NCBI RefSeq assembly: GCF_011065895.1
Contig: NZ_JAALCR010000014.1
Span: forward strand, 124,001 to 188,000
DNA from: Paludisphaera rhizosphaerae
Lineage (GTDB): Bacteria > Planctomycetota > Planctomycetia > Isosphaerales > Isosphaeraceae
Reading direction: 5' to 3'
DNA: 64,000 nucleotides
The first letter of the stretch is position 1. Each line of letters starts with the position of its first letter. The notes beneath the pieces are model-generated. The model had not been told where the DNA came from. It did not search any database and worked only from the letters and a program-made list of their open reading frames with translations. This document shows positions 4,171-24,540 of the stretch, piece after piece. Position numbers and translations under genes: made by a program.

Positions 4171-4174
4171 AAAA

Positions 4175-5072: not shown

Positions 5073-5080
5073 AAGAACTC
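5073..5080. repeat. IS1 target-site duplication, right copy
   Basis: AAGAACTC directly abuts the right end of the IS1 element and is identical to 4275-4282. Confidence 0.93.
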
Positions 5081-6227: not shown

Positions 6228-6293
6228 GTGGACATGCTGACCTCCCGCATTGGAGTCTTGTAACGCAACTCCAAGTGGAATCAGCATGTCCAC
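6228..6293 (-). promoter_or_regulatory. Long hairpin over the ISL3 transposase start codon
   Basis: GTGGACATGCTGA (6228-6240) is perfectly complementary to TCAGCATGTCCAC (6281-6293). A second, nested 7-bp pair (6250-6256 with 6268-6274) lies in the 40-base loop. The start codon at 6235 lies in the stem, and the ribosome site lies just inside the loop. RNA read through from outside the element would fold and hide the start, a known strategy of other IS elements to limit expression from external promoters. The role here is inferred. Confidence 0.6.
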
Positions 6294-6304
6294 CCCTTTC
6301 AAGC

Positions 6305-6332
6305 CCCCGCGCACGCTTCAGCCGGATGAACC
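6305..6332. repeat. Right terminal inverted repeat of the ISL3 element
   Basis: This is the reverse-complement partner of 4175-4202, with three mismatches in 28 bp. The shared inner block is GCGTGCGCGGGG. Confidence 0.88.
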
Positions 6333-6412
6333 CCAATTACTTCAAGATGGCGAGGAAGCAAGGGGAGCACAGCGGCTGACCCGGGCATTCGTACTGCGGG
6401 CGCTCGTGAGGA

Positions 6413-8781: not shown

Positions 8782-8782
8782 C

Positions 8783-9943
8783 TCACCCTTCCGGCGTCGT
8801 CATCAAACGATCCGAATCGGCCTCGGCCACGATCGCCGCCATTCGGGGAAATCGGCGGGCGAGGGCCACGGTGGTCCATGCCTGGCCGGCATACGACGGC
8901 CAATCGTCGGGCACGATCCTGACGACATCGCCGCCCCCGCACGGCTCGTCCATTGTGGCATAGTCCTGGTCGATACAGACGACCGGATCGACGAGGTCCA
9001 GCGGCCGCAGGGGCAAGCCCGCGTTCGCTGGGAGCTGAGCGAGGAGCCTCTTCGCCGTCGTACTTCCCCCGAGTTCCCAGAGCAGGGATTCGATTCCGGC
9101 CCGCCACCATCTCTTGCCGAGGAAACCGCGAAGAACGCCCTGATAAGCGGCCGGCTCGAAAAACTGGCCGAGGTCGCCCTTCATGGCCGCCACCAGGGAG
9201 GCGTGGGTCACCCTGAGCCGGACCGCCAGGTGGTGTGTATCAAACAGGAAGCAGGGATAGGGCAATATGCGATGCAAAACCCAGCGGACGAAGAGAAGCC
9301 CGTGGTTGCGGTGCGCCACTTCGGAGACAGGCGGGCGGCACTGTGCGACGTCGCGAATCGCGGCATTGATCCAGCCGGGCGTATCATCGCTTTCCGGGTC
9401 GGGCAATGCCAGCAGCTTCCTGACTTCTATCTCGATGGCCCCTCGGTCTTCGTACGGCCAGGACTCGGGAAGCGACCGGATGGCGTTCGCCAAAGACGCT
9501 ACTTGGGGGCCGACGGCTGAGGGATTTCCCTTGATGAAGACCCACTCAAGGTTGTGGGTACGGGCCAGCAGGTGGGCGCGAGGCTCGGCGGGGGTGAGCG
9601 AGAACATGCGTGCCTCGCCGGTATGAATCGCGAACCCCGTGGGCCGATTCAAGCGATTCGCGTGTTCCCGTAGCACCGCTGCAAGCGCCATGCCATTGAT
9701 GGGCTGTAGAGATATCTCCGTCACCTTACTGCGACCCGGCCAGTCGCTGATATCGTAGTCGACCAGGACCAGGTCGACGTCCTCGAGCATCTCCAGGTCG
9801 ACGCTATCAGGGTGTTCGACCCGAGCGTCCACGCCCTCGGCGAATCGAATCGCCCCGTTTTGTTCATCCGGCCGGTCATCTACTACCAGCACCCTGGCCG
9901 GCGTGGCGGGGCCCGGCGAACATTCGATTGGGTGGCTACTCAC
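8783..9943 (-). CDS. Receiver-domain protein with unknown C-terminal domain, second gene of the operon
   Basis: This 386-aa protein starts in an ATGA overlap with the kinase-like gene. Residues about 15-150 look like a divergent CheY-type receiver. RVLVVDDRPDE gives the acidic pair, LVLVDYDISDW the putative phospho-acceptor Asp, GFAIHTGE the Ser/Thr position and WVFIKGN the conserved Lys. The C-terminal 230 residues (for example RNHGLLFVRWVLHRILPYPCFLFDTHHLAVRL) do not resemble a DNA-binding output domain I know, so phosphorylation probably controls a protein-protein or enzymatic output rather than transcription. Its partner is almost certainly the upstream dual-GHKL protein. Confidence 0.8.
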   Translation of the reverse strand: MSSHPIECSPGPATPARVLVVDDRPDEQNGAIRFAEGVDARVEHPDSVDLEMLEDVDLVLVDYDISDWPGRSKVTEISLQPINGMALAAVLREHANRLNRPTGFAIHTGEARMFSLTPAEPRAHLLARTHNLEWVFIKGNPSAVGPQVASLANAIRSLPESWPYEDRGAIEIEVRKLLALPDPESDDTPGWINAAIRDVAQCRPPVSEVAHRNHGLLFVRWVLHRILPYPCFLFDTHHLAVRLRVTHASLVAAMKGDLGQFFEPAAYQGVLRGFLGKRWWRAGIESLLWELGGSTTAKRLLAQLPANAGLPLRPLDLVDPVVCIDQDYATMDEPCGGGDVVRIVPDDWPSYAGQAWTTVALARRFPRMAAIVAEADSDRLMTTPEG

Positions 9944-12267: not shown

Positions 12268-12341
12268 TACTTGCGTCCAGAATCCGGCTACTGCTCATCC
12301 CGCGTTGATTCACAACGAAGGATACCTTATAGAACTCGGTC

Positions 12342-12695
12342 GTGATACGCGCGACCAACTCTGGCGGCAGAATGGGACTACCTACACGAATGACTGGACG
12401 CCTAGCCCGGTGGCCCGACTACTACGACCTCGTTGCTACCCGAGTCGAAGCGACGGTAGGAGGTTCGGGGAACGAGCGCCATATGCTACTCAAGGCTGAA
12501 TCAGGGTGGGTTCGATGTGGCGTTTGGTATGGCTTCCTGGCGGATCCCGATGGGGCTGTGATCAGAACTCTGATCGTCGAGATCGTCCTCGTTCGCAAGC
12601 CTAGGCGGGCCACTAGGGGTTTCGAAGCATCTGGCTTGATCATCGTAGACGAACTCAGTTTTCCGGAGCTGGGGTTCGACGCACCCCATGGATAG
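12342..12695 (+). CDS. Possible small hypothetical protein (uncertain)
   Basis: An ORF divergent from the four-gene operon could encode up to 117 aa; the start may instead be 12372 or 12390. Its second half (SGWVRCGVWYGFLADPDGAVIRTLIVEIVLV) reads like a real beta-rich sequence, and no frame competes convincingly. There is no clear ribosome site, no family is recognised and codon bias is mixed. It may be a remnant. Confidence 0.3.
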   Translation: MIRATNSGGRMGLPTRMTGRLARWPDYYDLVATRVEATVGGSGNERHMLLKAESGWVRCGVWYGFLADPDGAVIRTLIVEIVLVRKPRRATRGFEASGLIIVDELSFPELGFDAPHG

Positions 12696-13219
12696 GTATG
12701 GACACCTGCGAATAGCGGTGCCGAGTGTCACTCGCTTGTGGCAAGGCCAGCCTCTGCTTCGACACACCGCCGCCTCGGCGGTCGGCCTGGGCGAGCGGGG
12801 ATTTTAAGTCCACTGTTTCTCAAACAGCTGCCTCGGTGATAGTCCGAGACGAGGTGTAGGGGCTTAGCTCAAGCTTTCACATCCAGCCGAGGGCTTGGAG
12901 TCCTGCTGCGGCCGTCTTCGTTCGACAGGGCAGGCGGAGGGGCGTCAAGGTAGGCGTTCGTGTAGGCGTCGCGGAACCGCTCGACGGCCGCGGCCGTCGC
13001 ATACGACTCCATGGTCGGATCGCGGGTCCCAAGGCTGTCCAACCTTCGCTCGATCCGGTCGAGCCACGTCTAGCCAGCTTCAGGGATTGAAGCAGGTACA
13101 GGGGACAGCTGGGGAAAGGATCCTCGGCAGAGGCCCGTTCAACATTATCAAGTCCATGAGCTGGTTCTGGCTCTAACCTTATTCTGGCCCGAGGCTCTGG
13201 AATAAGGCCCGTCGGCACC
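12696..13219. other. Gene-poor stretch with a decayed coding remnant and a weak hairpin
   Basis: No intact gene is visible. A 66-codon open stretch on the minus strand (13069-12869), containing RIERRLDSLGTRDPTMESYA, reads like the tail of a lost gene but lacks a start and follows an in-frame stop. An 8-bp hairpin (CCTTATTC 13177-13184 with GAATAAGG 13200-13207) lies just beyond the end of the next minus-strand gene and could act as a weak terminator, though no T run follows. Confidence 0.4.
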
Positions 13220-14302
13220 TCAAATCCGGAACTCGATGGGGATGTTGTCAAGGAGTGCGGCGGGATGGATCGCGCCCCATTCCGCGCGGGCGAGGGCCTT
13301 TCGAGTCGAAGGGCTCAGCGGAAGCCGCCAGCGATCGACGAAGTAGCGGCCCAGGTCGCGGCCCGCGGCCGTCGAGGCCGCCACGTACCATATGAGGCCT
13401 TGTCGCAGGGCACCCTCGGGTGAGTCCGGAGTAACCTCGGGGCACTCGCCGAGGACGCGATAGAAGCGCCGGAGCCAGCGGTCGCCTCCGACCTCGCGAC
13501 GCAGCCGCATCATGGCCGAGGCGTATATGTCGGTCTGGTTGGCCGTCAGGTTCGGATGCCGGCGGTCCTTCTCGCCGAGGCCCCCCTGCATGGTGAACGC
13601 CTTGAGGAAGGTGAGGTCGGTCTTTTCGATCTGGCCCTCCAGGGTCTCGATCCATTCCAGCGCCCCCTGGTCACCGGGCGCGACCTCAAGCTTCAGGACT
13701 TCCATGCAGACGTGCCGCATGAACACGGCGAAGCCGGTGCCGAACTGGGAGTGTCGGTCGCCGAAGACGAAGTAGTTCCGCCCCATCTCATAGAAGTAAT
13801 AATTTTTGAATGCTTTGGGGCTCTGGACGGCCAGCGGATAGTCGTCGGCGTAGAAGTGGATGACCTCGATGCCGGTCTGGCCCAGGTAGCCGCAGCCCCC
13901 GCCGCAGGTCAGCTCTCCCGGGACCGCCGCGATCGTCCCCCGGCCGTCGATGTGGTGGAACAGCCTCGGAACCTCGCCGACGAAGTCGGCATAGACCGCC
14001 CATCCGGCGTCGAGTCGCGACACGAACTCGGCGATAATGCTGCGGTCGAACTTCAGCGAGTCGGTCAGCAGCGCGATCCGGCGACCGATCCAGGGGAACA
14101 TCCAAGTGCTGACCCGCTTGGCGTCCCACTTCGCCGCATCCATCGCCATGGGCCGGTAGTCGAACGGTTCCCCCGGCCGGATCAGCTCCTTCGCCGTGGC
14201 TGCTCGCCGCGACTTCTTCTTCGCCGATTTCTGCACGCCCGGATCCTGAGCAAGCAACAAGCCGGACACTGTCAAGAAGTCGCGGCGCGTGGGATATCCC
14301 AT
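13220..14302 (-). CDS. Exported protein of unknown function with twin-arginine-type leader
   Basis: The 360-aa product begins MGYPTRRDFLTVSGLLLAQ. This is a short Tat-type signal (RRDFL followed by a hydrophobic stretch) common on planctomycete periplasmic proteins. The mature part is helical, with aromatic-rich patches (KAFKNYYFYEMGRNYFVFGDRHSQFGTG split by charged residues) and a Gly/Cys patch, TCGGGCGYLGQTGIEV. There is no HExxH or other catalytic signature that I can name. It stands alone between two accessory regions and is probably a host gene. Downstream is the weak hairpin at 13177-13207. Confidence 0.75.
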   Translation of the reverse strand: MGYPTRRDFLTVSGLLLAQDPGVQKSAKKKSRRAATAKELIRPGEPFDYRPMAMDAAKWDAKRVSTWMFPWIGRRIALLTDSLKFDRSIIAEFVSRLDAGWAVYADFVGEVPRLFHHIDGRGTIAAVPGELTCGGGCGYLGQTGIEVIHFYADDYPLAVQSPKAFKNYYFYEMGRNYFVFGDRHSQFGTGFAVFMRHVCMEVLKLEVAPGDQGALEWIETLEGQIEKTDLTFLKAFTMQGGLGEKDRRHPNLTANQTDIYASAMMRLRREVGGDRWLRRFYRVLGECPEVTPDSPEGALRQGLIWYVAASTAAGRDLGRYFVDRWRLPLSPSTRKALARAEWGAIHPAALLDNIPIEFRI

Positions 14303-14556
14303 TGAAGTACTCCGATTCGTTATTCCACGAGAGATCGGGCCTTCTGATGCGAGCAGTCAGCACTAAACGCGATGAAACCACCGCTCGGCGTCTTTCAGAT
14401 CTACTCGCTATGATCCTCGTGGCTCCCCCGTCGCCTGACAAGGTCCCAGCCCCTCCACACGCGTGTGCGACACGTATTGCCTGTAGAATCCCATACATTG
14501 AACAATGGTGCCGACGGAAGAAGCAAGAAGTTGACAATAAAAAGAAACAACTGGAA

Positions 14557-14874
14557 TCAAACGGGATCCGAAGGTTGCATTCCAGTGGTGCTCGACCTGC
14601 CGTTTGTCTTTTGCGAAGCTGGGTCACCGAGGGCACTCGCTAGGTCGTCGGGAAGCTCGCTCGCCTTGATCCTCCACAGGTCGTCCGTGGAGATCCGCAG
14701 GATTTCGGCGTCCCCCTTCAGCGTCAAGAGCGGGGTCACCAGAAGAGCCTTCGTCTGGTCACCCCCGGCGTAGAGGTCGGGATGCCTCGCAAGCATGTCC
14801 CTGGACGATGACGTGACGAAGTGCGGAGCGGGCGGATGCTCGCCGGCTTCAAGGACCTCCCTGGACTGCGACAA
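14557..14874 (-). CDS. Hypothetical protein, last gene of a small leftward operon
   Basis: About 105 aa from a TTG at 14874. The frame stays open upstream, but that part overlaps the preceding gene, so the start is a guess. The sequence LYAGGDQTKALLVTPLLTLKGDAEILRISTDDLWRIKASELPDDLASAL looks like a genuine folded protein. It lies 16 bases beyond the end of the 123-aa gene on the same strand and would be co-transcribed with it and the ribbon-helix-helix gene. Function unknown. Confidence 0.5.
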   Translation of the reverse strand: MSQSREVLEAGEHPPAPHFVTSSSRDMLARHPDLYAGGDQTKALLVTPLLTLKGDAEILRISTDDLWRIKASELPDDLASALGDPASQKTNGRSSTTGMQPSDPV

Positions 14875-14890
14875 CGCGGAGGAACATCGA

Positions 14891-15262
14891 TCAGCCCTCC
14901 GAGGCGTCCAAGTCCACCGTGAACTGACCCACGTCGGCCGGGTCGAAGCAGACGATGTGATCGTCGCCGTAGCCGCCGGTGCCGGCCTCGGGACAGGTCC
15001 ACAGGCATCCCTGGTAACGCACGAACCGCTTGACCGGCTCACGCCAGTCGAGGAACGAACAGAGGGCGTCGGCGAGCGTTTGGGAGGCCGCATCGTAATC
15101 AGCCCGCGCGAGGTCGTGGCCTTCGCCTTCCAGGTGCAGCCCCCACGATTCGGCCGCCTGCTTGTAAACCTCGATGGCCGCGATGACGTCGGCCGACTCG
15201 GTTCGCTTCGTGGGAGTGGAAAGTAGGCGTGGGCCGGGGGCGCTTGCGGGGGGAGTGCTCAT
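14891..15262 (-). CDS. Hypothetical protein coupled to the ribbon-helix-helix regulator
   Basis: This acidic 123-aa protein has a start codon that overlaps the stop of the upstream regulator gene (ATGA). It contains ARADYDAASQTLADALCSFL (helical) and a C-terminal part rich in Trp, Cys and Gly (GCLWTCPEAGTGGYGDDHI). No family is recognised. The coupling suggests it works with, or is controlled by, the small DNA-binding protein, as in toxin-antitoxin or plasmid-control pairs, but nothing in it identifies a toxin. Confidence 0.65.
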   Translation of the reverse strand: MSTPPASAPGPRLLSTPTKRTESADVIAAIEVYKQAAESWGLHLEGEGHDLARADYDAASQTLADALCSFLDWREPVKRFVRYQGCLWTCPEAGTGGYGDDHIVCFDPADVGQFTVDLDASEG

Positions 15263-15489
15263 TCCGGATTGCCTTTCGTCTTGCGGGTGGCCTTCATCCT
15301 CTTGGCCATCTCCTCTTGCTCCATCTGCGCCAGCACGGGCCGGAGGATGGCGCTGAGTAGTTCAGTCATGCTCTCGTCGCGGTAGGCGGTCACGATGCGC
15401 GCCGACTCCACGACGTCCATTTCGAGTTTAACGCTCAGCGTCCGGGGCTTGTCACCAGCCATCGGCGTTTGTTCCAGCAGTGCCGCCAT
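15259..15489 (-). CDS. Small ribbon-helix-helix-like DNA-binding protein
   Basis: 76 aa from the ATG at 15489, with GGAGAC upstream. The core TLSVKLEMDVVESARIVTA plus ESMTELLSAILRPVLAQ fits one beta strand and two helices of the Arc/CopG (ribbon-helix-helix) fold. The C-terminus is Lys-rich. It is divergent from the gene at 15728, and the space between holds repeated GTAGCAA motifs overlapping a promoter, so it is probably the repressor of both directions. It may act as the copy or excision control of the integrative element. Confidence 0.62.
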   Translation of the reverse strand: MAALLEQTPMAGDKPRTLSVKLEMDVVESARIVTAYRDESMTELLSAILRPVLAQMEQEEMAKRMKATRKTKGNPE

Positions 15490-15512
15490 CGTGCGAAGTC
15501 TCCACAGTGGCC

Positions 15513-15623
15513 ATCGTAGCAAACTACACCGCCCGACACTGGAATGATACGCAAGTCCACCATCGGTAGCAATCGAATAAATAACACTTTGCTACTTGAC
15601 TACGGTAGCAAAGTAGCTAGGAT
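15513..15623 (+). promoter_or_regulatory. Promoter with operator-like GTAGCAA repeats
   Basis: A sigma-70-like promoter is visible: TTGACT (15596-15601), a 16-bp spacer, then TAGGAT (15618-15623). CTTTGCTAC (15587-15595) and GTAGCAAAG (15605-15613) form a perfect 9-bp inverted repeat straddling the -35 box and spacer. Further GTAGCAA half-sites lie near 15515 and 15575. Repressor binding here would block transcription of the gene at 15728. The divergent ribbon-helix-helix protein is the natural candidate. Confidence 0.6.
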
Positions 15624-15659
15624 ATGGTTGTCGGGTCGAGAAGGCCCGGAAACGAAAGC

Positions 15660-15695
15660 GGGCCGGGGTGGTGCTGGTAACACCGTCCCCGGCCC
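15660..15695 (+). other. GC-rich leader hairpin upstream of the 15728 gene
   Basis: GGGCCGGGG (15660-15668) pairs with CCCCGGCCC (15687-15695), with an inner GGTG/CACC pair. It lies between the promoter and the ribosome site. It is the first of several GC-rich hairpins, one before each of the following genes. Confidence 0.55.
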
Positions 15696-15727
15696 TTGGA
15701 AAGCGCCTACGCGAATAGGAGCCTACC

Positions 15728-16240
15728 ATGTCTCAACATACCACTCTGGACAAGATCGCCGCTTCCCTGACCGTCTCCCTGGACAGCACGAAGACTCTGG
15801 CCGCCGCCGAGAGCCGTTGCGGCTCGATCGCCGCTCTCGGACTCATCACGGCCGTCGAGAAGGCCCTGGACGACCTGACGGCCCTCCGCATGACCTCCCT
15901 GCGTGACGAACTGCTCGCGCCCCCCCCGATCGCCGGGAACTGCGACGACCACGAGGAGATCAGCGCCGATTTCCTCCGGGATCCGCTGAGCTGGCCCGAC
16001 GATTCGGATCTCGTATACTTCAGCCCGCCGCACGTCTTCGACTACGCCGACGCCTCCCAATGGGACGCCTGGACCGACGCCGACCGCTGGGCTCCGACGC
16101 CCCTCGAGGTCTTAGCCCGCGGCTTCTCCGACGCCGAGGCCGCCCGTTCTGACGCCGACTGGGACGATCTCTACAACGCCGCCTATCCTGACCTGATGAC
16201 CGACGCCGACCTGATGGCTGCAGGGCTGGCCGTCGGCTGA
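15728..16240 (+). CDS. Acidic hypothetical protein, first rightward gene of the integrative element
   Basis: A 170-aa protein with AGGAG seven bases before its ATG. The N-terminal 60 residues are helical with Ser/Thr/Ala bias. The rest is strongly acidic and aromatic (SWPDDSDLVYFSPPHVFDYADASQWDAW split over two segments), with repeated DADW/DADL units. There is no signal peptide and no family I recognise. Position directly behind the repressible promoter suggests an early or control function for the element. Confidence 0.65.
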   Translation: MSQHTTLDKIAASLTVSLDSTKTLAAAESRCGSIAALGLITAVEKALDDLTALRMTSLRDELLAPPPIAGNCDDHEEISADFLRDPLSWPDDSDLVYFSPPHVFDYADASQWDAWTDADRWAPTPLEVLARGFSDAEAARSDADWDDLYNAAYPDLMTDADLMAAGLAVG

Positions 16241-16254
16241 CCTCCGACGTCGCC

Positions 16255-16279
16255 GCGGCCGGGGATGGTCCCCGGCCGC
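16255..16279 (+). other. Perfect 11-bp hairpin between 15728 and sigma-factor genes
   Basis: GCGGCCGGGGA, loop TGG, TCCCCGGCCGC. No T run follows, so it is an attenuator, processing site or mRNA-stability element rather than a clean terminator. It resembles the hairpin at 15660-15695. Confidence 0.55.
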
Positions 16280-16313
16280 TCGTCTCACTGCCTACGAGTC
16301 GGAGGGTTCTGTG

Positions 16314-16934
16314 ATGGCGACGCAAGTACGCGCCCTGAGCGGCCGCTGGTGGCAACCGCTGACCGAAGATCAAAAGCAGATGGCCGAGCGATACGCCTGG
16401 TTGCCGCGGAATGTGGCTTCCTGGTTCATGACCCGGTGGTCGTCCCCTGAAGACCGCGAGGCGCACGGGACTATGGGACTAATCTACGCGGCTTCGAGCT
16501 TCAAGCCGGAGAAGGGATTCGGCTTCTACGGATACGCGACGTTCTGCATCAAGGCTGAGATCACCTACGCCCGCGCCCGCGGGCTGGAAGGCCTGGTCCG
16601 AGTCCCTCGGAAGGCCGAAGAGGCGGGGCTCGGGGTGCAGGTCGTCTGGGGGTCGACGTCGATCGGCGTCGACGGTTCCGACCTGCTCTCTGCGATCGAG
16701 GATCGGAGGGAAGGTCCGAGGATCGACTCCGAATCGCGGATCCGGTTCCAGCGCGCCGTCCAGTCGCTCCCGGCCCGCCAGCGTCGCGCGGTGCGGCTCC
16801 GCTACATCAAAGGCATGCGACGAAAAGACGTGGCTCGCGAACTCGGCGTCTCGACTCGCTATACGAATCGCCTGATACAGGAAGCGCTCCAACGACTGTC
16901 CACGTCTCACAGCCTGGCCGAACTGGCTTCCTGA
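16314..16934 (+). CDS. Small sigma-70-family RNA polymerase sigma factor
   Basis: About 206 aa. GGAGGG seven bases upstream favours the ATG at 16314 over the GTG at 16311. Residues about 45-90 resemble sigma region 2 (MGLIYAASSFKPEKGFGFYGYATFCI), matching the pattern for core-polymerase binding and -10 recognition. The C-terminal 60 residues are region 4 with a helix-turn-helix (SLPARQRRAVRLRYIKGMRRKDVARELGVS in two parts). Regions 1 and 3 are lacking or short. Being encoded within an integrative element, it probably redirects polymerase to element genes or to host genes. No anti-sigma gene is recognised next to it. Confidence 0.82.
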   Translation: MATQVRALSGRWWQPLTEDQKQMAERYAWLPRNVASWFMTRWSSPEDREAHGTMGLIYAASSFKPEKGFGFYGYATFCIKAEITYARARGLEGLVRVPRKAEEAGLGVQVVWGSTSIGVDGSDLLSAIEDRREGPRIDSESRIRFQRAVQSLPARQRRAVRLRYIKGMRRKDVARELGVSTRYTNRLIQEALQRLSTSHSLAELAS

Positions 16935-16948
16935 CAAACACCCGCCGT

Positions 16949-16969
16949 CGCCCGGCCTCACGCCGGGCG
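16949..16969 (+). other. GC-rich hairpin after the sigma-factor gene
   Basis: CGCCCGGC, loop CTCAC, GCCGGGCG. It is the third of the serial intergenic hairpins on this strand. Confidence 0.5.
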
Positions 16970-17016
16970 GCATAACCCGCACATTAAGGCTGAGAGCATC
17001 GGAGGGGATCAATCAG

Positions 17017-18003
17017 ATGGGAAGCGTCATCGAGAGCTGGCGGACGCCGAAGACGTCGCGCGACCTGGGCCGGGCGGTCGAACTGTTCATCCGGGACGGG
17101 CTGGGGATCATGCCGGACGAACTTGAACGGAGCCGGTGGGGGATCGAAGCGATGGTGGACCTGGAGGACGGTCCGGGGGCCATGGTGATCGTCCAGGACC
17201 GCGAGGCGACCGGCATGAAGTGGGTATACCTCGACGAGGATCAGCAAGCCTTGCTGGACGCCTGGGAGGCCGCAGGCGAACCTCCGGTCGAACAGGTCAA
17301 CTTCCGCCTCGACCTGGGCGGGCCGCTCTCCCCCGAAGCGGAGGCCGCCGCCCGCGCCGTCATGGCCGGGAAGGTTTGCGAGGAGATCGGCTGGACCCCG
17401 GACGAAGTCGCCGCGATGCGGAAGCGGAATTTCCCCGACATCCTGGAGCGGGTGGATTCGAAGCGGCACACCGGCAGGACCGGGCCGCCAACCAACTCCG
17501 CCGAGCTGGCCGAGGCGGTCAAGGCCTGCCTGAAGGCGGCATACGGCCTGGTGGCGACCGGCGACGATTACTGCCTCGAGGTCGACATCGCTCCCTACGG
17601 CGTCCTGCGGATGGTCGTGGGCAAGCCGGAAGACTTCGAAGCGAAGCCGGTTCAGCAGGCCGAGGCCGCGTCCACGGATGAGGTGCAGGCGAAGACGCCG
17701 ATGGGCCGGCTGCTGGCAGCCGCGTTGGAGATCTATCACGACCCGGGCACCATCGGGGATCGCCAGGGCTGCATCGACAAGATCCTGAACACGATCGTCC
17801 GGTTGGCCCACGGCTACGCGGCCGACGCGGTCCCCGCGGAGAGCAGAGCCGTGAGATTCGGCGGCACGACCGTCCTCGTCGAACCAGAGGACTTCGACGG
17901 GGACGTCGAGCGGGTACACGTCATCGACGACGCCGACACGAGCAACCTCGGCGATGAGGATGAGGCCGAGGACGCAGACCGGTTCGTCCCGGCCCACAAC
18001 TGA
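17017..18003 (+). CDS. Hypothetical protein of the integrative element
   Basis: This 328-aa acidic soluble protein is preceded by a Shine-Dalgarno-like GGAGGGG. It is helical and Glu/Ala-rich through residues 1-130 (ELFIRDGLGIMPDELER; EAAARAVMAGKVCEEIGWTP). A short segment, GDDYCLEVDIAPYGVLRMVV, suggests a beta sheet near residue 190. The C-terminus is highly acidic (LGDEDEAEDADRF). I recognise no domain. It may be a DNA-mimic-like or regulatory protein, but that is only a guess from charge. Confidence 0.65.
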   Translation: MGSVIESWRTPKTSRDLGRAVELFIRDGLGIMPDELERSRWGIEAMVDLEDGPGAMVIVQDREATGMKWVYLDEDQQALLDAWEAAGEPPVEQVNFRLDLGGPLSPEAEAAARAVMAGKVCEEIGWTPDEVAAMRKRNFPDILERVDSKRHTGRTGPPTNSAELAEAVKACLKAAYGLVATGDDYCLEVDIAPYGVLRMVVGKPEDFEAKPVQQAEAASTDEVQAKTPMGRLLAAALEIYHDPGTIGDRQGCIDKILNTIVRLAHGYAADAVPAESRAVRFGGTTVLVEPEDFDGDVERVHVIDDADTSNLGDEDEAEDADRFVPAHN

Positions 18004-18209
18004 CCCCGATGCTGCCAGCAGGCACGGTCCCGGCTCCAGCCAGGGCGATAGGGAGCCGGTTGACCGACGGTGGAAGTGATCGTCCGGCCACGTATAATCC
18101 AGTTCACCGGGTGGCGTCGACGGGTTCGAAACCGTCAACGCCCGACGCGACCTCCGGCCGGCGCTCTCCCTGGGGCGTCGGTCGGAGTCGGCCCGTGCCA
18201 GGGAGATAG

Positions 18210-18914
18210 ATGCCGATGTCTGACGCGCACGCGCCTCGTCTAGTTGCTCTGCCTGATGGTAGGCCGCTCGATATCCTGCCTCCTTCGTGGGAGTTGAGCG
18301 AGGCTCTGTGCGACCTCACGGAGACATCCCTTCCAGGTGAGCCATGGGAGAAGGCCCTGACGGTTATGAACACCGTGGTAACTCACTGCGTTGACATATC
18401 GGACATTTCCACCGCCGGCATCGTCAACACGAGGGCGGACGACCTGCGCCCCTACGTGGGCGGCCCATGTCGCTGGCCTGAGATCGTTCGTGCCATCGTC
18501 GCGACATGGCCTAACTCCGGCCCTTGGAGTCACTGGCGAGCGTTTGTTCGTGTATGCGTTGCGGTCTACGTCGAAAACACGCAGCCTCCACTTTGGACGC
18601 TGGATCCCGAGAAGCTCAGGCAGAGCGAGGAAGCGGACGGCACCCACGAAGCTGACACCTGGCTGAATTCCGCCAATCCCTCCGCGCTCTCGGCCTCCGC
18701 GCTCGCCACGCCGACTTCGACGCCGACGAAGCCCCCTCGCAGACGCGGAAGGCCTAAAACCGCCGCCAGCCAGAAGGACTGTCGGATAGAGCAGGCTTGG
18801 GAGAGCGGCCAATATGAAAATCTTGTGGATCTAGCCAACGCGTTTGGGATGACTGTGAAAGCCGTCAATGCGGCGCGTGGACGAGTGAGATGGCATCGGA
18901 GGAAGCCGGAGTAA
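18210..18914 (+). CDS. Probable DNA-binding protein with AT-hook-like and HTH segments
   Basis: 234 aa; the ATG at 18210 follows GGGAG. The N-terminal 130 residues are unrecognised. A Ser/Thr/Pro-rich linker follows, then the basic PPRRRGRPK motif, an AT-hook core. The C-terminal helix-turn-helix-like stretch YENLVDLANAFGMTVKAVNA precedes a basic tail, WHRRKPE. It is likely to bind element DNA. Its stop codon lies within the stem of a terminator. Function otherwise unknown. Confidence 0.6.
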   Translation: MPMSDAHAPRLVALPDGRPLDILPPSWELSEALCDLTETSLPGEPWEKALTVMNTVVTHCVDISDISTAGIVNTRADDLRPYVGGPCRWPEIVRAIVATWPNSGPWSHWRAFVRVCVAVYVENTQPPLWTLDPEKLRQSEEADGTHEADTWLNSANPSALSASALATPTSTPTKPPRRRGRPKTAASQKDCRIEQAWESGQYENLVDLANAFGMTVKAVNAARGRVRWHRRKPE

Positions 18915-18956
18915 ATTCCCCGTCAAGGCCCGTTGATTTACTCCGGCGCTTTTTTT
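18905..18956 (+). terminator. Rho-independent terminator of the left gene block
   Basis: GCCGGAGTAAAT (18905-18916) pairs perfectly with ATTTACTCCGGC (18936-18947) and is followed by GC and seven T residues. The stop codon of the 234-aa gene sits in the left arm. The motif CCGGAGTAAAT recurs alone at about 19026-19036. Confidence 0.85.
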
Positions 18957-19116
18957 CATGCGAGTCACACGCGGTCAAGTACTGGAACACGCAGTCTCGG
19001 TCCCGGAGCAATTCGCCGCCGATCGCCGGAGTAAATCAGGAACTCCGAAGCGGCCCTTACACTTCACCCGACGAAGGAAACAGCACCACAAACGACACCC
19101 GACGAGACCCACCACC

Positions 19117-19320
19117 ATGAACGCCGTCTCTGAATTCCCATCCGCTCTGCTCACCGTCGAGCAGGTCGCCGAACGCTTGAGCGTCAGCACGCGGACAGTG
19201 TTTCGGATGGCCGCGTCCGGCGAGTTTCCGTCGGGCTTCCGCGTCCGCAATCTGCGTCGTTGGCGGTCGAAGGACGTCGACGAGGCCATCGCCCGCATGG
19301 CGAGCCGGCCGGCCCGCTGA
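19117..19320 (+). CDS. Excisionase-like helix-turn-helix protein
   Basis: 67 aa from the ATG at 19117. The sequence LLTVEQVAERLSVSTRTVFR plus ASGEFPSGFRVRNLRRW is the MerR/Xis-type HTH_17 pattern: a helix-turn-helix followed by a wing. Such small proteins act as recombination directionality factors or element regulators, and the tyrosine integrase downstream makes an excisionase role likely. No strong ribosome site is visible; a longer reading from 18958 adds unlikely sequence. Confidence 0.78.
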   Translation: MNAVSEFPSALLTVEQVAERLSVSTRTVFRMAASGEFPSGFRVRNLRRWRSKDVDEAIARMASRPAR

Positions 19321-19332
19321 GCGCACGGAAAA

Positions 19333-19362
19333 GCGGCGAAGGCGATCCACCGCCCTCGCCGC
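19333..19362 (+). other. GC-rich hairpin between excisionase and zinc-ribbon genes
   Basis: GCGGCGA (19333-19339) pairs with TCGCCGC (19356-19362), with an inner GGCG/CGCC pair. It continues the pattern of one hairpin per intergenic gap. Confidence 0.5.
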
Positions 19363-19419
19363 CTTGTGAGTCTCCCAACTCAAGCAGGATCCCAGCCACG
19401 GGATAGGAAGAAGTATACG

Positions 19420-19656
19420 ATGGAATTTCTGCGCCGTCAAGAATCAAATATTGAACACAATATAATACCAAAACTGCAAATCGACGTCTGCCCGACGTGC
19501 GGCCGGTTCCATCCCCGCCGCCGCGCCCGCCGCTGCCCCATCTGCTCGAGGCCCTCGAAGCTCGAGGGCGCGTCCAGGGGCTGCGAACGCTGGTACTGCG
19601 CCGACTGCGACGTGATCTTCGAGAGCGACGTCGCTTCGAGGAGGGGCCGTCGATGA
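19420..19656 (+). CDS. Small zinc-ribbon protein coupled to the DUF3987 gene
   Basis: 78 aa with AGGAAG upstream of the ATG. Paired metal ligands are clear: CPTCGRFH, CPICSRP and YCADCD, so one or two zinc ribbons are expected, with a basic middle (RRRARR). The stop overlaps the next start (ATGA), so it is translated together with the DUF3987 protein, probably as a nucleic-acid-binding accessory in element replication. Confidence 0.72.
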   Translation: MEFLRRQESNIEHNIIPKLQIDVCPTCGRFHPRRRARRCPICSRPSKLEGASRGCERWYCADCDVIFESDVASRRGRR

Positions 19657-21194
19657 GCACGGCCGAAAAACTCGCCGCCACGGAATGGGCGGCCGGCGTG
19701 CCCCCGGATCAACAAGGGCCGGCGGTCCTGGCGATGATGCGGGGCGAGGGCGACCCGACGTCGGCCGACTCGTGGGGGCCGCTGCGGCTGGCCGATCGGC
19801 CGGCCGCGGAGCCGTTCCCTCTGGAGGTTTTGCCGCCCGCCGCCTGTCGCCTCGCGGTGGAAGGCGCGAAGTCGATCGGCTGCCCGGTCGACTTCGTCGC
19901 GGGGGCGGTCCTGGGCGTGGCCGGCGGCGCGATCGGCCGTTCCGCCTCGCTCCTCGTCAAGCCCGGCCACTTCGCCTCGGCGTCCCTGTTCGTCGCGATC
20001 ATCGGGCCGCCCACGTCGGGCAAGTCCCCGGCGCTGGACCTGGCCGCGGGCCCGATCCACGCCATCGACGCCGACCTCGCCCGCGCCTACGAGGCCGACG
20101 ACCTCCGGTGGAAGGCGGAGTGCAAGGCGATGGGGCCCAAGGCGAAGGAGTCGGAGCTGCCGCCCCGCCCCCGGCCGCGGCGGATCGACGTCGACAACTT
20201 CAAGCTCGAGAAGCTGCCGATCCTGCTGCGAGACAACCCCCGCGGCCTGCTCGGGATCAAGGACGAGTTGTCGTCCCTCATGGGCTCGTTCGGCGAGCAC
20301 AAGGGCGGGCGCGGGACGGACAAGGAGGGCCTCCTCACGGCCTGGTCGGGCAAGAAGATCATCAAGGACCGCGTGGGCGACGACAACGGCGTGCCCGTCC
20401 GCTCGCCCCATCCCTGCCTGTCGATCGTCGGGGGGACGACCCCCGGCAACCTGCCCAAGTTCGTCGACCCCAACTCGCCGGACGACGGGTTCATCGAGCG
20501 GTTCCTCTTCGTCTACCCCGAGCCGATGGGGATCCCCGAGGTCGAGGACGAGGACGGCGTCTCCGACGCCGCGGCCGACGACTGGAGGGCCCTCGTCGGC
20601 CGCCTCTGGGCCCGCCCGATGAACGGCGAAGTCTCGTTCGTCGCCCGCATGACGCCGGAGGCGAAGGCCGCGCGTAAGCGGCTGCGGCGGGGCCACGCCC
20701 GCGAGATGAACGACCCCGGCTTCAACCCGTCCCTCGCATCCACGTGGGGGAAGCTGTCCGCCTACGCGGACCGCCTGGCCCTGGTCCTCGGCCTCATGGA
20801 TCACGCCGGCGATCCCACGGCCGACCCCTTCGACGTCCCCGACGTCGCGGAGCGTCACGTCCTCGACGCGTGGCGGCTCGCGGCCTACTTCAAGAGCCAC
20901 GCGCGGCGGGCGCACGGCGACGTGTCCCTGGACCTGCCGGGGGCCGAAGGCAAGGCCGTCGACGCGATCGTCCGCTGGGTGAAGTCCAAGGGGATCCGCA
21001 CGTTCAGCGAACGCGACGTCAAGCAGGCCCGGGACTGGATCAAGCAGGACGCCCTCGACGCCGCGTTGCTCCACCTCGCCAAGATGAACGCGATCCGCCC
21101 CGCGAAGGCACCGTCGGACGGCTCCAAGGGAGGCCGCCCCAAGGGCCCCGTCTTCGACGTGAACCCCGTCCTGCTGCCCGCCCCGACGCCGTGA
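19653..21194 (+). CDS. DUF3987-family ATPase (replication helicase/primase-associated)
   Basis: 513 aa; the start is fixed by the ATGA overlap. After an N-terminal lead come LEVLPPAACRLAVEGAKS and a small Ala/Gly-rich segment. A Walker A motif, GPPTSGKSPA, is near residue 120 and LLGIKDELSSLMGSF carries the acidic Walker B-like position. IVGGTTPGNLPKF and DDGFIERFLFVYPE are typical of DUF3987, which sits beside primases in phage and integrative elements. The C-terminal 130 residues are helical (winged-helix-like, IRTFSERDVKQARDWIKQDAL). The likely role is helicase or loader function at the element's origin, with the primase encoded next. Confidence 0.85.
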   Translation: MSTAEKLAATEWAAGVPPDQQGPAVLAMMRGEGDPTSADSWGPLRLADRPAAEPFPLEVLPPAACRLAVEGAKSIGCPVDFVAGAVLGVAGGAIGRSASLLVKPGHFASASLFVAIIGPPTSGKSPALDLAAGPIHAIDADLARAYEADDLRWKAECKAMGPKAKESELPPRPRPRRIDVDNFKLEKLPILLRDNPRGLLGIKDELSSLMGSFGEHKGGRGTDKEGLLTAWSGKKIIKDRVGDDNGVPVRSPHPCLSIVGGTTPGNLPKFVDPNSPDDGFIERFLFVYPEPMGIPEVEDEDGVSDAAADDWRALVGRLWARPMNGEVSFVARMTPEAKAARKRLRRGHAREMNDPGFNPSLASTWGKLSAYADRLALVLGLMDHAGDPTADPFDVPDVAERHVLDAWRLAAYFKSHARRAHGDVSLDLPGAEGKAVDAIVRWVKSKGIRTFSERDVKQARDWIKQDALDAALLHLAKMNAIRPAKAPSDGSKGGRPKGPVFDVNPVLLPAPTP

Positions 21195-21222
21195 ATAGGC
21201 CCTCTCGGTCGAAGTGGGAGGG

Positions 21223-21358
21223 GTTTTGAAGGTGTCGAGGGGAGTTTTGAAGGGGTTTTGAAGGAAATCGACTTTCGACGATCGGTTTCCTAACTCGCTT
21301 TGCAGAAATACCTTGTGTCGCAGCAATCGCGTTTTGAAGGTTTTGAGGGTTTTGAAGG
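21223..21358 (+). repeat. Iteron-like GTTTTGAAGG direct repeats
   Basis: Six copies lie in 136 bp between the DUF3987 and primase genes: 21223, 21244, 21255, 21331, 21340 (variant GTTTTGAGGG) and 21349. The last three overlap by one base, so they are in 9-bp register. The surrounding DNA is AT-richer than the genes. Direct repeats beside replication genes suggest an origin or initiator-binding array. Confidence 0.65.
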
Positions 21359-21367
21359 CCCATAGGT

Positions 21368-22498
21368 ATGTTGGGAGCCAGCCTCATGCCCTCGACGTCG
21401 GTCCCGAAGGTCCCTCGCGAGCGTCTCGATTGGGACGCCATGAAAGGCGGCGTCGATGAAGAGGCTGTGGCGGCCGCATTGCTGGGCGAACCGGCTCGGC
21501 AAGACGCTTCGGGCCTCTGGTGGGTGTGCCCGTTCCACCCCGACCGCAACCCGAGCTTCGTCGTCCGCCACGGCGGGTGGAAATGCTTCGGATGTGGGGC
21601 GCGTGGGGACGCGGTGGACCTGGTCATGCAGCTGGAGGGCCGTCTCTTCCCCGACGCAGCCAGGCGGGCCGTCGAACTCTCGGGGGGCTTCGGGACGTTC
21701 GAGCCGTCGTCCTACCGCCCCAAGGTCGTGCAAGCCGCCGCGCGGCCCCCGGCGAGTCCGTCCGGGCTCCCCGCGGGCGAGGCCGCCAGGGTCGTGGAAG
21801 CGGCCGTCGCACGGCTCTGGACGCCGGCCGGGGCCGAGGCTCTCGCCTACCTGCAACGCCGCGGCCTGGAGGACGAGACGATCCGCTCGGCCCGGCTGGG
21901 GTTCGCAGATCCGGTGATGGTCCCGACGAGGGACGGCGACCGGACGTTCCGGGCGTCGGGGGTCGTCGTCCCATGGTTCGACGGGGGCCGGCTGGCGTTG
22001 GTCAAGGTCCGCCGCCTGGACGACGGCCGGCCGAAGTACGTCGAGGCCTACCGGGCCGCCCCCGGGACCTTCCCCTCCCCGGAGGCGATCCGGCCGGGCC
22101 GCCCCCTGGTGATCGTCGAGGGCGAGTTCGACGCGATGCTGCTGGACCAACTGATCGGCGACTTCGCGAGCGTCGTCACGCTCGGCTCGGCGTCGTCGAA
22201 GGTCGACCCGGGCGTCCTGGCTCGGCTGCTCCGGAACCCTCGCTGGTACGTCGCCCACGACGCGGACCCGGCCGGGGAGGCGGCGGCCGCGCCCTGGCTG
22301 AATCTCGCGTGGGCCGCCCGCGTCCGGCCGCCTACCCCGGCGAAGGACTGGACCGACGCCCACGGGCTGGGATGCAACGTGGTCCGCAACCACTGGCTGC
22401 GAGCGATCCGGGAAGCCCCCCGGCCCACCTGGGGCGAACTGGAGTCCTGGAGCTGGGGCGAATCGAGCGAGGTCGAAGACCTGGAAGGTTGGAATTGA
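21368..22498 (+). CDS. DnaG-type primase: CHC2 zinc finger plus Toprim domain
   Basis: 376 aa. Residues about 55-85 form the CHC2 zinc ribbon (VCPFHPDRNPSF and KCFGCGARGDAVDLV). Residues about 240-300 form the Toprim fold, with VIVEGEFDAMLL supplying the Glu and AHDADPAGEAA the DxD. This is shorter than chromosomal DnaG and lacks the helicase-binding C-terminus, as in phage or ICE primases. It should synthesise primers for element replication together with the DUF3987 ATPase. The start could also be the internal ATG (MPSTSVP). Confidence 0.88.
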   Translation: MLGASLMPSTSVPKVPRERLDWDAMKGGVDEEAVAAALLGEPARQDASGLWWVCPFHPDRNPSFVVRHGGWKCFGCGARGDAVDLVMQLEGRLFPDAARRAVELSGGFGTFEPSSYRPKVVQAAARPPASPSGLPAGEAARVVEAAVARLWTPAGAEALAYLQRRGLEDETIRSARLGFADPVMVPTRDGDRTFRASGVVVPWFDGGRLALVKVRRLDDGRPKYVEAYRAAPGTFPSPEAIRPGRPLVIVEGEFDAMLLDQLIGDFASVVTLGSASSKVDPGVLARLLRNPRWYVAHDADPAGEAAAAPWLNLAWAARVRPPTPAKDWTDAHGLGCNVVRNHWLRAIREAPRPTWGELESWSWGESSEVEDLEGWN

Positions 22499-22576
22499 CT
22501 CAGATCCGCGAAGCGGTGAGAACCCACGAACTAGAGCGACGAACGATCGGGTTGCACCAGGAGCGGAGGAGTCAAC

Positions 22577-22719
22577 GGGGACTGGCTCCGCAGCGCAGCG
22601 AAGGTGGCTGTCCCCCTTGGCTCCGAAGCGGCCTCGGGGATGCCCGGAGAAAGGGGACAGGCACCCGGCCGCCAGGTTGATACCAAGAGCCGAGGCTCTC
22701 GCGCCGGGAGCCAGTCCCC
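22577..22719. repeat. Nested inverted repeats upstream of the integrase
   Basis: GGGGACTGGCTCC (22577-22589) is the exact reverse complement of GGAGCCAGTCCCC (22707-22719). Inside, GGTGGCTGTCCCC (about 22604-22616) nearly complements GGGGACAGGCACC (about 22655-22667). The four related 13-bp words form a large cruciform-like structure resembling the REP/RAYT-type repeats scattered in some genomes. It may also regulate integrase expression. Confidence 0.6.
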
Positions 22720-22778
22720 TTTCTCCTCCGCCGTGGGCAATTCAAGCGGTCGCCGCTCTAGACACAGGAGGCCGAACG

Positions 22779-24251
22779 ATGGCCAGTTTTCGAAAGAAGG
22801 GCAGGAACTGGTACTTCACGTACACGAACGCCGCCGGGAAGCGTTCCGAGGTCAAGGGCTGTCCAGACAAGCGAGTCACGGAGCAGATGGCCGCAGCCGC
22901 TGAGGCGGAGGCCTCCAAGGTCAGAGCGGGCCTCGTCGACCCCCGAGACCTGGCTTTGAGGGAGCACGGCCGAAGGCCTCTGGGAGAGCACATCGAGGCG
23001 TGGGGGAAGTCGCTCGTCGACTCCGGCGGGACCGACCGCCACGTCTCGATGTCCCTGTCTCGCGTCCGGCGGCTTTCCGCCATCGTCATGGGGGCCGGCG
23101 CCGCCGAGACGGAGTATCCACGGCGAGCGACCGCCGCCGACCGAGAATCCAGGGACCTGGCTGTATCCGAGCGGTTGGAGGCCGGGCGGCTCTCGGATCT
23201 GACCGCCGAGCGCGTGCGGTCGGCCCTGGGGGCTCTCAAGTCCCGCGGGATGTCCCTCCAAAGCCTCAATCATCATAGGGCCGCCGTCCGATCGTTCGAC
23301 ATCTGGTGCCTCGACACGCGACGGACGCGGGAGGCTTCCCTTCGTTCGGTCAAGGGCTTCAACGCCGAGGAGGACCGTCGCCACGATCGGCGGACCCTCG
23401 GGGTCGAGGAGCTGCGTCGGCTCATCGAGGCCGCCAGGCTCGGTCCCGTCGCGTTGGGCGTGGCCGGCTTGGCCCGCTCGTTGGCCTACCGGCTCGCGGT
23501 CGCCACGGGCCTCCGCTACTCGGAAATCCGGAGCATCCGGCCGGCGTCCTTCGACTGGTCGTCGACCCCCGCCACGGTCGACGTGACGGCCGCCTACGCC
23601 AAGAACGGCCGATCGGCCACCCAGACTCTCCCTCACGACCTGGCGAGCGACCTGCGGCCCTTCGTGGAGCAGGGGCCCCAGGGGGAACCCGTATTTCCGC
23701 TGCCGGCCGACAGAGGGGCGGAGATGCTCCGGGTCGACCTGGAGGCCGCAGGCATCCCTTACGTCGACGAGGCTGGACGCTACTTCGACTTCCACAGCCT
23801 GAGATGTCAGACCGCGACCATGCTGGACGCCGCAGGGGTGACTCCCCGGGTCGCTCAACGGATCATGCGGCACAGCACGCCCGGCCTGACCGACCGCTAC
23901 ACCCGGCCCAGGGCCGAGGACGTCGAACGGGCCGCCCTCTCGATGCCGAGTTTGAGGCCCGGAAAGGGTGGTGACGGAGAACCCATCAATGATCCCCTTT
24001 CCGCGTATTTGCCGTGCGCAGGGGACGCTGCCGGTCTCACCCCGTCCCATGCTGACAAGAGGACGATTTCGGATGAGCAACCGAGCATGAAGCTCGGACC
24101 CAGTAAAACAAGGGCTTCTGACGCTCCTTGTCCTACGGGGTCGGCTTCTGTCGCGAGTGACCGGGCTGGGACTCGAACCCAGGACCAACGGATTAACTTA
24201 CCTCATCGGCTCTCGCCGACCGCCGCCCTTCCGAAGGGAGGAGCGGGTTGA
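22779..24251 (+). CDS. Tyrosine site-specific integrase
   Basis: 490 aa from the ATG at 22779, preceded by CAGGAGG; a longer reading from 22617 is unlikely. The N-terminal half has an Arm/core-binding character (FRKKGRNWYFTYTNAAGKR). Catalytic residues: Arg in ATGLRYSEIRS, Lys in AYAKNGRSATQ, His-x-x-Arg in FHSLRCQTAT, His in RIMRHSTPG and the nucleophile Tyr in LTDRYTRP. The ORF continues about 115 residues past the Tyr, unusually long. That tail runs antisense through exon 2 of the tRNA-Lys gene and into its intron. This marks the right end of the integrative element in the tRNA. Confidence 0.9.
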   Translation: MASFRKKGRNWYFTYTNAAGKRSEVKGCPDKRVTEQMAAAAEAEASKVRAGLVDPRDLALREHGRRPLGEHIEAWGKSLVDSGGTDRHVSMSLSRVRRLSAIVMGAGAAETEYPRRATAADRESRDLAVSERLEAGRLSDLTAERVRSALGALKSRGMSLQSLNHHRAAVRSFDIWCLDTRRTREASLRSVKGFNAEEDRRHDRRTLGVEELRRLIEAARLGPVALGVAGLARSLAYRLAVATGLRYSEIRSIRPASFDWSSTPATVDVTAAYAKNGRSATQTLPHDLASDLRPFVEQGPQGEPVFPLPADRGAEMLRVDLEAAGIPYVDEAGRYFDFHSLRCQTATMLDAAGVTPRVAQRIMRHSTPGLTDRYTRPRAEDVERAALSMPSLRPGKGGDGEPINDPLSAYLPCAGDAAGLTPSHADKRTISDEQPSMKLGPSKTRASDAPCPTGSASVASDRAGTRTQDQRINLPHRLSPTAALPKGGAG

Positions 24252-24540
24252 AGGTCTGGACTATATCTTCGCCGTCGCAGGCGTGCCGCGTTTAGTCTCT
24301 GAGGCTGATGCCGAGGATCCCCCGGCGCCTTGCCTGCTGATGGCCCAATCCCCTCGCTTTTCGAACCGTCACGTTCGCCGTCGCCGGCCGCGTTGTGGTG
24401 CGAGTGGCTCTCAGGGCGTTCCAGCAAATAGCGGCATTCACTCGTCGCGGTTCGGTTTCTTCCCGCGCGAGGCTCCTATTGTGCGGCAGAAATCCGGCCG
24501 CCTTTGAAGTCCGTTGCTCTACCGACTGAGCTACCCGGTC
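24158..24540 (-). tRNA. tRNA-Lys(UUU), split by a group I intron
   Basis: Exon 1 (24540-24507, 34 nt) gives the acceptor GACCGGG, D-arm GCTC...GAGC and ACGGA-CTT of the anticodon arm. Exon 2 (24196-24158, 39 nt) gives TTAA-TCCGT, T-arm CTGGG-TTCGAGT-CCCAG, acceptor CCCGGTC and discriminator A. Joined, they make a 73-nt tRNA with perfect 7-bp acceptor, 5-bp anticodon and 5-bp T stems. The anticodon loop is CTTTTAA, anticodon UUU. CCA is not encoded. The break falls between U34 and U35. Confidence 0.9.
24197..24506 (-). ncRNA. Group I self-splicing intron in tRNA-Lys(UUU)
   Basis: 310 nt ending in the obligatory G at 24197 and following a U. The P7 core is textbook: CTCAGAGACTAAAC (24303-24290) and AAGATATAGTCC (24269-24258), pairing through GACTA/TAGTC. 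The segment GGAGCC (24476-24471) can act as internal guide, pairing GAG with the exon end CUU, as in cyanobacterial tRNA-Leu introns. A small hairpin (GCGGC/GCCGC) lies in the P1 loop. There is no room for a homing endonuclease. Confidence 0.87.

Follow-up and report, generated by a model that had tools for sequence, protein, structure and literature searches.

Group I introns in bacterial tRNA genes are known from tRNA-Leu, tRNA-Arg, tRNA-Ile and tRNA-fMet, and the locus described here raises the question of whether tRNA-Lys also serves as a host. The locus is located in Paludisphaera rhizosphaerae (Planctomycetota; Isosphaeraceae), in a stretch of 64,000 nucleotides (nt) from contig NZ_JAALCR010000014.1 (positions 124,001 to 188,000), referred to as the window. 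A sequence-only reading of the window had described a tRNA-Lys(UUU) gene split between U34 and U35 by a group I intron of 310 nt and had considered tRNA-Lys to be an unusual host. At the level of sequence comparison, window positions 24158–24540 (minus strand) were confirmed as a tRNA-Lys(UUU) gene with a group I intron at U34/U35.

Exons and Boundaries of the Interrupted tRNA-Lys(UUU) Gene

The 310-nt insert separates a 34-nt 5′ exon ending in ...ACGGACUU from a 39-nt 3′ exon starting with UUAAUCCGUU. The joined exons form a canonical cloverleaf of 73 nt with the 7-nt loop CUUUUAA and the anticodon UUU. Uninterrupted tRNA-Lys(UUU) genes were found in four genomes of one genus of the family (G017–G020), and their sequences agreed with the joined window exons at 73/73 positions. 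Hence, short of an RNA test, the splice sites are fixed by the intronless genes, and both the split between U34 and U35 and the perfect 73-nt tRNA proposed earlier were borne out by the intact genes. ARAGORN in its default run reported no tRNA in the whole window; with introns allowed, it recovered the tRNA-Lys gene with misplaced boundaries.

Covariance-Model Match and Conserved RNA Structure

The Rfam model RF00028 (Intron_gpI) matched positions 24516–24227 of the minus strand over its full length (1–253), with 36.1 bits and an E-value of 2.1e-7 for the 901 bases searched. A search of the whole 8.05-Mb genome gave an E-value of 4.3e-7 for the tRNA-Lys intron, and the same search gave matches in 4 of 14 control genomes. 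Structure was analysed in an alignment of 36 interrupted tRNA-Lys genes of Isosphaeraceae. RNAalifold, run without a group I prior, gave P1, P2, P3, P4, P5, P6, P8 and a hairpin in the P9 region, together with the tRNA stems. In a structure of 79 pairs including the P7 pseudoknot, 99.2% of cells were paired, compared with 30–41% when the partners were slid, a control which accounts for the relatedness of the sequences and favours a structure taken from the same alignment. Changes on both sides of a pair were observed in 23 pairs (111 cells, against a shuffled mean of 22.4), a value as high being reached in 0 of 500 shuffles that ignore relatedness.

Pairing was found in 99.5% of cells in P3, 97.2% in P5 and 100% in each of P4, P6, P7 and P8; double-sided changes were seen in P3, P7 and P8, and P4 was invariant. 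P1 consists of 3 bp between the exon CUU and the guide GAG, with U·G at the 5′ splice site (columns 34/87), and was invariant in 36/36 sequences. The terminal G of the intron was likewise present in all 36 copies, which, with the fully paired P7, is in agreement with the P7 strands and terminal G read earlier from the 310-nt insert. The aligned introns also showed an enlarged P5 with three additional covarying helices. Identification of the insert as a group I intron is supported by the covariance match, its position in 36 of 45 genomes of the family, the covarying helices, P1, the terminal G and the existence of intronless versions.

Distribution in Isosphaeraceae and Beyond

The family sample comprised 45 Isosphaeraceae genomes (a search of the whole order gave the same 45), which were searched by BLAST with exon–intron–exon as query. 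The intron was present in 36, on one contig in 35 and in pieces on two contigs in G036, with lengths of 281–338 nt, and the survey of related genomes suggested by the sequence-only reading thereby showed that the intron is not peculiar to the window genome. The four genomes G017–G020 carried the uninterrupted gene, and in five others (G013, G016, G021, G025 and G034; completeness 68–93%) no tRNA-Lys was found by exon–intron BLAST. In G009, a second intron copy (L128) similar to the one in G015 was found, possibly a contaminant.

A pattern of the intron/3′-exon junction matched 28 stretches of the GTDB genome collection. The matching records include Singulisphaera acidiphila DSM 18658, Paludisphaera soli JC670, Tautonia sociabilis, Aquisphaera insulae and several metagenome-assembled genomes (MAGs) of Isosphaeraceae. 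A MAG labelled Gemmataceae (L191) matched the junction pattern with a clearly different intron of 241 nt. Another match was in a MAG labelled Alphaproteobacteria (L169), with a 3′ exon like that of genus g18; this label probably stems from an error of binning or naming.

A sequence model of the Lys intron and its 3′ exon (R1) was run on 397 genomes of the class, 352 of them outside the family. Full-length Lys-type matches were found in at least six of the 352 (two in family f3 and four in f2), a lower bound obtained with strict filters, and all six loci read as tRNA-Lys(UUU) split at 34/35. When 29 weaker outside-family matches were opened (13 + 16), no further Lys introns were found, and eight of these genomes carry an uninterrupted tRNA-Lys(UUU). 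Genus g38 of family f3 is divided, the intron being present in G228 and G281 and the gene uninterrupted in G240 and G278 (two of these eight), a split that would reflect a recent gain or loss of the intron. At a threshold of E 1e-9, a search across the phylum (392 genomes) gave four matches; three were Lys cases already known, and the fourth, a partial match in G636, contained no readable tRNA.

Relationship to Other tRNA Introns

RF00028 was run over 248 genomes of the class, and 64 were matched. Outside the family, the 27 matches comprised 18 tRNA introns, 7 introns in rRNA and 2 without an assigned host. The tRNA hosts were tRNA-Leu(UAA) at 34/35 (8), tRNA-Ile(CAU) at 33/34 (4) and 36/37 (1), tRNA-fMet at 33/34 (2), tRNA-Arg(CCU) (1) and, as the most likely reading, tRNA-Asn(GUU) at 35/36 (2). 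For the last two (L133 in G183 and L136 in G150), the splice finder tied tRNA-Asn(GUU) at 35/36 with tRNA-Thr at 33/34, and Asn was preferred from the stem sequence. Planctomycete hosts may accordingly be best read as including tRNA-Asn(GUU), which is not known from the literature as a group I host. No tRNA was readable at six other group I or R1 matches (L147, L157, L079, L243, L245 and L316).

The window genome harbors a second group I intron, in tRNA-Ile(CAU) at 36/37 (C6:113630-113899, L001; 44.3 bits). The same combination of host and site was seen at 40 further loci of the class sample, almost all of them in Isosphaeraceae. Both introns of this genome lie within the anticodon loop, but the tRNA-Ile intron differs in its site, its tRNA, its core and its 3′ end. 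A closer resemblance was seen to the tRNA-Leu(UAA) introns of cyanobacteria, plastids and phage records, which share the site 34/35, the exon end GGACUU, the short CUU/GAG P1 and the group I core; like them, the Lys intron is too short for a homing-endonuclease gene. It differs from them in its tRNA and, in the 36 aligned copies of Isosphaeraceae, in the enlarged P5 with three extra helices; the Lys introns of families f2 and f3 are shorter.

A tree was built from 111 introns using anchored core blocks of 83 columns, with 94 distinct rows after removal of 17 identical ones. Anchored blocks were used since a whole-intron alignment with MAFFT E-INS-i misplaced the P4 region of the Lys introns, and the block of L240 was adjusted by hand. 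The rRNA introns (L131, L132, L134, L135, L137, L140 and L148), loci without a tRNA read (L079, L147, L157, L243, L245 and L246), the split copy L116/L117, the duplicates L066 and L191 and the second copy L128 were left out beforehand. The 39 Lys rows, from three families, formed one side of a branch with support 100/100 in this 83-column tree, in which the bootstrap correlation (0.913) had not settled, and in the best tree they were not nested within the Leu(UAA) introns. A distinct lineage of tRNA-Lys introns is thus supported by the sequence tree. With regard to subgroup IC3, to which the classical bacterial tRNA introns belong, the same 83 columns gave a separate Lys clade, but the joining of Lys with Leu was not rejected by the approximately unbiased (AU) test (p-AU 0.38 and 0.30).

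These values bear on a possible origin of the tRNA-Lys intron from an intron of tRNA-Leu(UAA), transferred by reverse splicing or by copying. In tRNA-Lys, the 5′ exon end (GGACUU) and the site (34/35) match those of the Leu(UAA) introns of the class, which share the guide GAG and mostly end in GGTA.G, and a tRNA-Leu(UAA) intron is present inside Isosphaeraceae as well (L318 in G033). Together with the joined tree that was not rejected, this keeps descent from Leu in consideration; the best tree, with its strongly supported separate branch, argues against it, albeit on only 83 columns, and we regard such an origin as a tentative possibility, rather unlikely on balance.

Proposed Splicing and Its Expected Importance for Decoding

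In the proposed pathway, the anticodon stem would keep the exons of pre-tRNA-Lys(UUU) together, and the guide GAG would base-pair with the exon CUU. Guanosine bound by P7 would attack 3′ of U34, after which U34 would attack 3′ of the terminal G of the intron, so that the ligated exons would yield the 73-nt tRNA-Lys and the 310-nt intron would be freed. An integrative element would have taken the 3′ end of the gene as its target and supplied a matching intron end and 3′ exon, leaving the gene whole after integration. The short P1 is in keeping with the Anabaena pre-tRNA-Leu intron, whose exons are kept together through the anticodon stem, and bacterial tRNA group I introns of this general type (Anabaena, Azoarcus) self-splice in vitro. 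This explanation as a whole, i.e., a group I intron after U34, ordinary group I splicing and an element reusing the 3′ end, is considered very probable.

The importance of splicing was evaluated in G012, a genome in two contigs. The tRNA model gave 47 matches, all of which were read; no other tRNA-Lys(UUU) was found among them, one match having no clear anticodon (loop CTCAAA), and the sole other Lys anticodon was CUU. The anticodon CUU is not expected to read AAA. Since no other tRNA-Lys(UUU) was found in G012, its decoding of AAA should depend on splicing. Both tRNA-Lys(UUU) (L106) and tRNA-Ile(CAU) (L064) were seen there only as intron-interrupted genes, the CAU tRNAs among the 47 matches being initiator and elongator Met.

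Several points weigh against the proposed explanation. Excision and joining of the exons are what we infer from the sequence. With 36.1 bits, the window intron does not reach the Rfam gathering score (50 bits), which is the detection threshold of the curators and not a biological feature, and an Rfam scan at gathering thresholds reported nothing for the locus; the covariance-model match that the sequence-only reading had named as a check was thus obtained, though under this score, which three orthologous introns exceed (G035, 57.2; G036, 54.9; G033, 54.1 bits). The minimum free energy fold of the single pre-tRNA was no more stable than shuffled sequences (z -0.77; 19/100 as good), and the covariation shuffles leave relatedness out of account. 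Uninterrupted tRNA-Lys(UUU) genes in at least eight other genomes of the class indicate that the intron is dispensable for the tRNA as such. Finally, the window genome has a tRNA-Lys(CUU) and a divergent second tRNA-Lys(UUU) (L033:15486-15557), in an array on C33, and for this reason the dependence on splicing is argued from G012 and not from the window genome. C33 carries two tRNA arrays near a contig end, one of 4 genes (L033:837-1224) and one of 22 (L033:15486-17839), the latter including the odd tRNA-Lys(UUU); their appearance is that of a mobile element or of tRNA arrays in phages.

The intron could be a genuine group I intron that requires a host protein to fold and does not self-splice. 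The core looks complete, and the in vitro self-splicing of the general type speaks for independence from such help; the introns of the family are also too short for the usual homing-endonuclease or maturase gene. Assistance by proteins is described for other group I introns in a review (PMC3984707), and a need for it here is judged unlikely. It is far less likely that the gene is dead, its intron decayed and non-splicing and AAA read by another tRNA. The score under the gathering threshold and the divergent tRNA-Lys(UUU) on C33 would fit such decay, but the exons are near-invariant, the boundaries and catalytic core are kept in 36 copies with compensatory changes, and G012 has no other tRNA-Lys(UUU) among its 47 tRNA matches; a dead gene is thus very improbable.

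A Putative Integrative Element at the 3′ End of the Gene

A block of 51 identical bases, comprising the whole 3′ exon with the final 10 nt of the intron on one side and 2 further nt on the other, recurs exactly at G000:C14:112775-112825. The two copies of this attachment (att) block are 35.4 kb apart (about 112.8–148.2 kb of C14), and the second lies outside the window. As it has no 5′ exon, the second copy is a displaced one. The sequence-only reading had placed the intron exactly where an element recombined; a site shared with the element was indeed found, whereas the block includes no more of the intron than its last 10 nt. The window gene would be a hybrid, with an ancestral 5′ part, an end derived from the element and a crossover within the 51 bases.

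The genes of the element in the window include, by Pfam, an integrase, a DnaG-type primase, a DUF3987 protein, an HTH_17 protein and a sigma-70-like protein, and its G+C content is 0.61–0.65 (window 1–16 kb) versus 0.64–0.70 to the right of the tRNA-Lys gene. The coordinates are given in Table 1. The integrase frame extends into the tRNA-Lys gene, covering its 3′ exon and the end of the intron in antisense orientation (24158–24251, plus strand). Since the frame overlaps the att/tRNA end, the C-terminus of the integrase would change with integration and excision.

Table 1. Features of the interrupted tRNA-Lys(UUU) gene and the adjoining element in the window.
Feature	Position	Strand	Remarks
5′ exon, tRNA-Lys(UUU)	24507..24540	-	34 nt, 3′ end ...CGGACUU (C32 U33 U34)
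Group I intron	24197..24506	-	310 nt, last nt G; RF00028, covariation in 36 sequences, intronless relatives
3′ exon, tRNA-Lys(UUU)	24158..24196	-	39 nt, begins UUAAUCC (U35 U36 A37 A38)
GAG of internal guide sequence	24473..24475	-	Pairs with exon CUU (24507-24509), 3-bp P1; invariant 36/36
P4, 3′ strand (5′ strand 24421-24426)	24335..24340	-	Paired 36/36, invariant
P7, 5′ strand GACUA (guanosine-binding helix)	24293..24297	-	100% paired; last pair A-U in 26, C-G in 10
P3, 3′ strand (5′ strand 24431-24436)	24284..24289	-	99.5% of cells paired; 3/6 pairs changed on both sides
P7, 3′ strand UAGUC	24259..24263	-	Same helix as GACUA strand
att block	24156..24206	-	Exact repeat at C14:112775-112825, 11.2 kb left of window
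Putative integrative element, part in window	1..24206		Between att copies; Pfam; G+C
Tyrosine integrase	22779..24251	+	PF00589, E 1.8e-14 on 22758-24080; open reading frame 22617..24251; start inferred at Met of MASFRKKG

Similar to genomic islands of the tyrosine integrase type in tRNA genes, the integrase is placed beside the tRNA, with the intact gene at one end and a displaced 3′ fragment at the other; unlike in those islands, the shared block takes in the last nucleotides of a group I intron and not the tRNA alone. Among relatives, the displaced copies share 7 (G006), 3 (G028), 5 (G029) and 8 (G030) nt of the intron end, where the 3 nt of G028 mean little and G030 was counted by eye; exon mismatches numbered two in G029 and one in G030. 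For the displaced copy of the intronless G020, the shared stretch extends 7 nt into the 5′ exon rather than the intron. On these six cases, the attachment sites would appear to track the presence or absence of the intron. Beyond the displaced copy, a stretch of about 26–36 nt resembling a terminator hairpin could be aligned to the 3′ flank of 4 of 6 relatives, two of these four also carrying an integrase, and the 1.5-kb flanks left of the displaced copy gave no protein-level match; the outer boundary of the element is less sure, the support from the flanks being weak. In G029 (L085 and L126), the 3′ flank of the displaced copy, which carries the two exon mismatches, resembles that of the intact gene, and the flanks are unlike those of a simple single insertion, which suggests tandem or nested elements.

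The possibility that the interruption is leftover DNA of an integrative element is practically negligible and was dropped, as most intron-bearing relatives showed no displaced copy. The integrase does adjoin the tRNA and the att repeat overlaps the intron end, but a displaced copy was seen in just 4 of 35 other intron-bearing relatives (G006, G028, G029 and G030), and of 29 relatives tested, 4 have a related integrase no more than 1.5 kb from the gene (G006, G014, G028 and G030). In addition, the insert lies beyond the att block as seen from the element and folds as a conserved group I intron.

tRNA Introns in Phage Sequences

The junction pattern matched seven contigs of IMG/VR, one of which (L251) is an Isosphaeraceae intron. 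The other six represent four distinct sequences (L247, L248, L250 and L253) on contigs of 20 to 381 kb, some with the locus within tRNA arrays, and these phage loci read as tRNA-Lys(UUU) split at 34/35 by introns of 185–203 nt with a Leu-like core. ARAGORN at default does not report the split tRNA-Lys genes in L247–L253. The protein support for a phage origin of L250 and L253 is modest, and the viral status is that of IMG/VR. Two of the phage sequences were compared with 50,697 phage records, giving 12 records each. Nine places were opened: tRNA-Leu(UAA) introns were read in LR756501 (L254, LR756501.1, 735 kb) and Agrobacterium phage Atu_ph07 (L255), a tRNA-Arg(CCU) intron, annotated there as a long tRNA-Arg, in a Microcoleus phage (L260), and a likely tRNA-Lys(UUU) intron in LR756508 (L259, LR756508.1); the other five showed no convincing tRNA.

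In the free tree, the phage Lys introns fell among Leu and Arg introns. Holding the five phage Lys rows as one clade was 3.26 log units better than the free tree, and a single clade of phage and planctomycete Lys introns was not rejected (AU p 0.51; 0.395 without L259). It may be that tRNA-Lys(UUU) 34/35 is a recurrent intron home, colonised independently in planctomycetes and large phages, that the intron is obligatory for reading each AAA codon in Isosphaeraceae and that the elements have adapted to it with an att site carrying the intron 3′ end. This wider reading is doubtful, in part since a joint clade of phage and planctomycete introns costs just 0.15 log units.

Implications for Isosphaeraceae and Their Mobile Elements

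In the open-access literature searched, no bacterial or phage group I intron of normal size was seen to be reported from a tRNA-Lys gene, which is consistent with the earlier view of tRNA-Lys as an unusual host. The tRNA-Lys introns that are reported share the host name; they have a different anticodon, are far too short for a group I core and were judged not comparable. In the text of the review PMC3984707, the terms tRNALys, lysine and Planctomyc- do not occur, and group I introns in phage tRNA genes had not been seen until then according to a 2014 review. The present locus adds tRNA-Lys to the short textbook list of intron hosts, and large phage contigs do carry group I introns in tRNA genes. 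Standard annotation misses the gene, ARAGORN at default and the Rfam gathering threshold both leaving the window blank.

Most of the family, which has cultured members, retains this intron host, so that splicing is testable at the bench in Singulisphaera acidiphila, Paludisphaera soli, Aquisphaera insulae and Tautonia sociabilis (names as in the records). Related genera with and without the intron, both having displaced 3′ copies, provide a natural experiment on the adaptation of an integrase to a ribozyme-split target. If the wider reading is true, an att site with the intron's own 3′ end would keep both the ribozyme and the tRNA intact on integration. If the picture from G012 holds, decoding of AAA and AUA in that genome would hang on ribozyme splicing.

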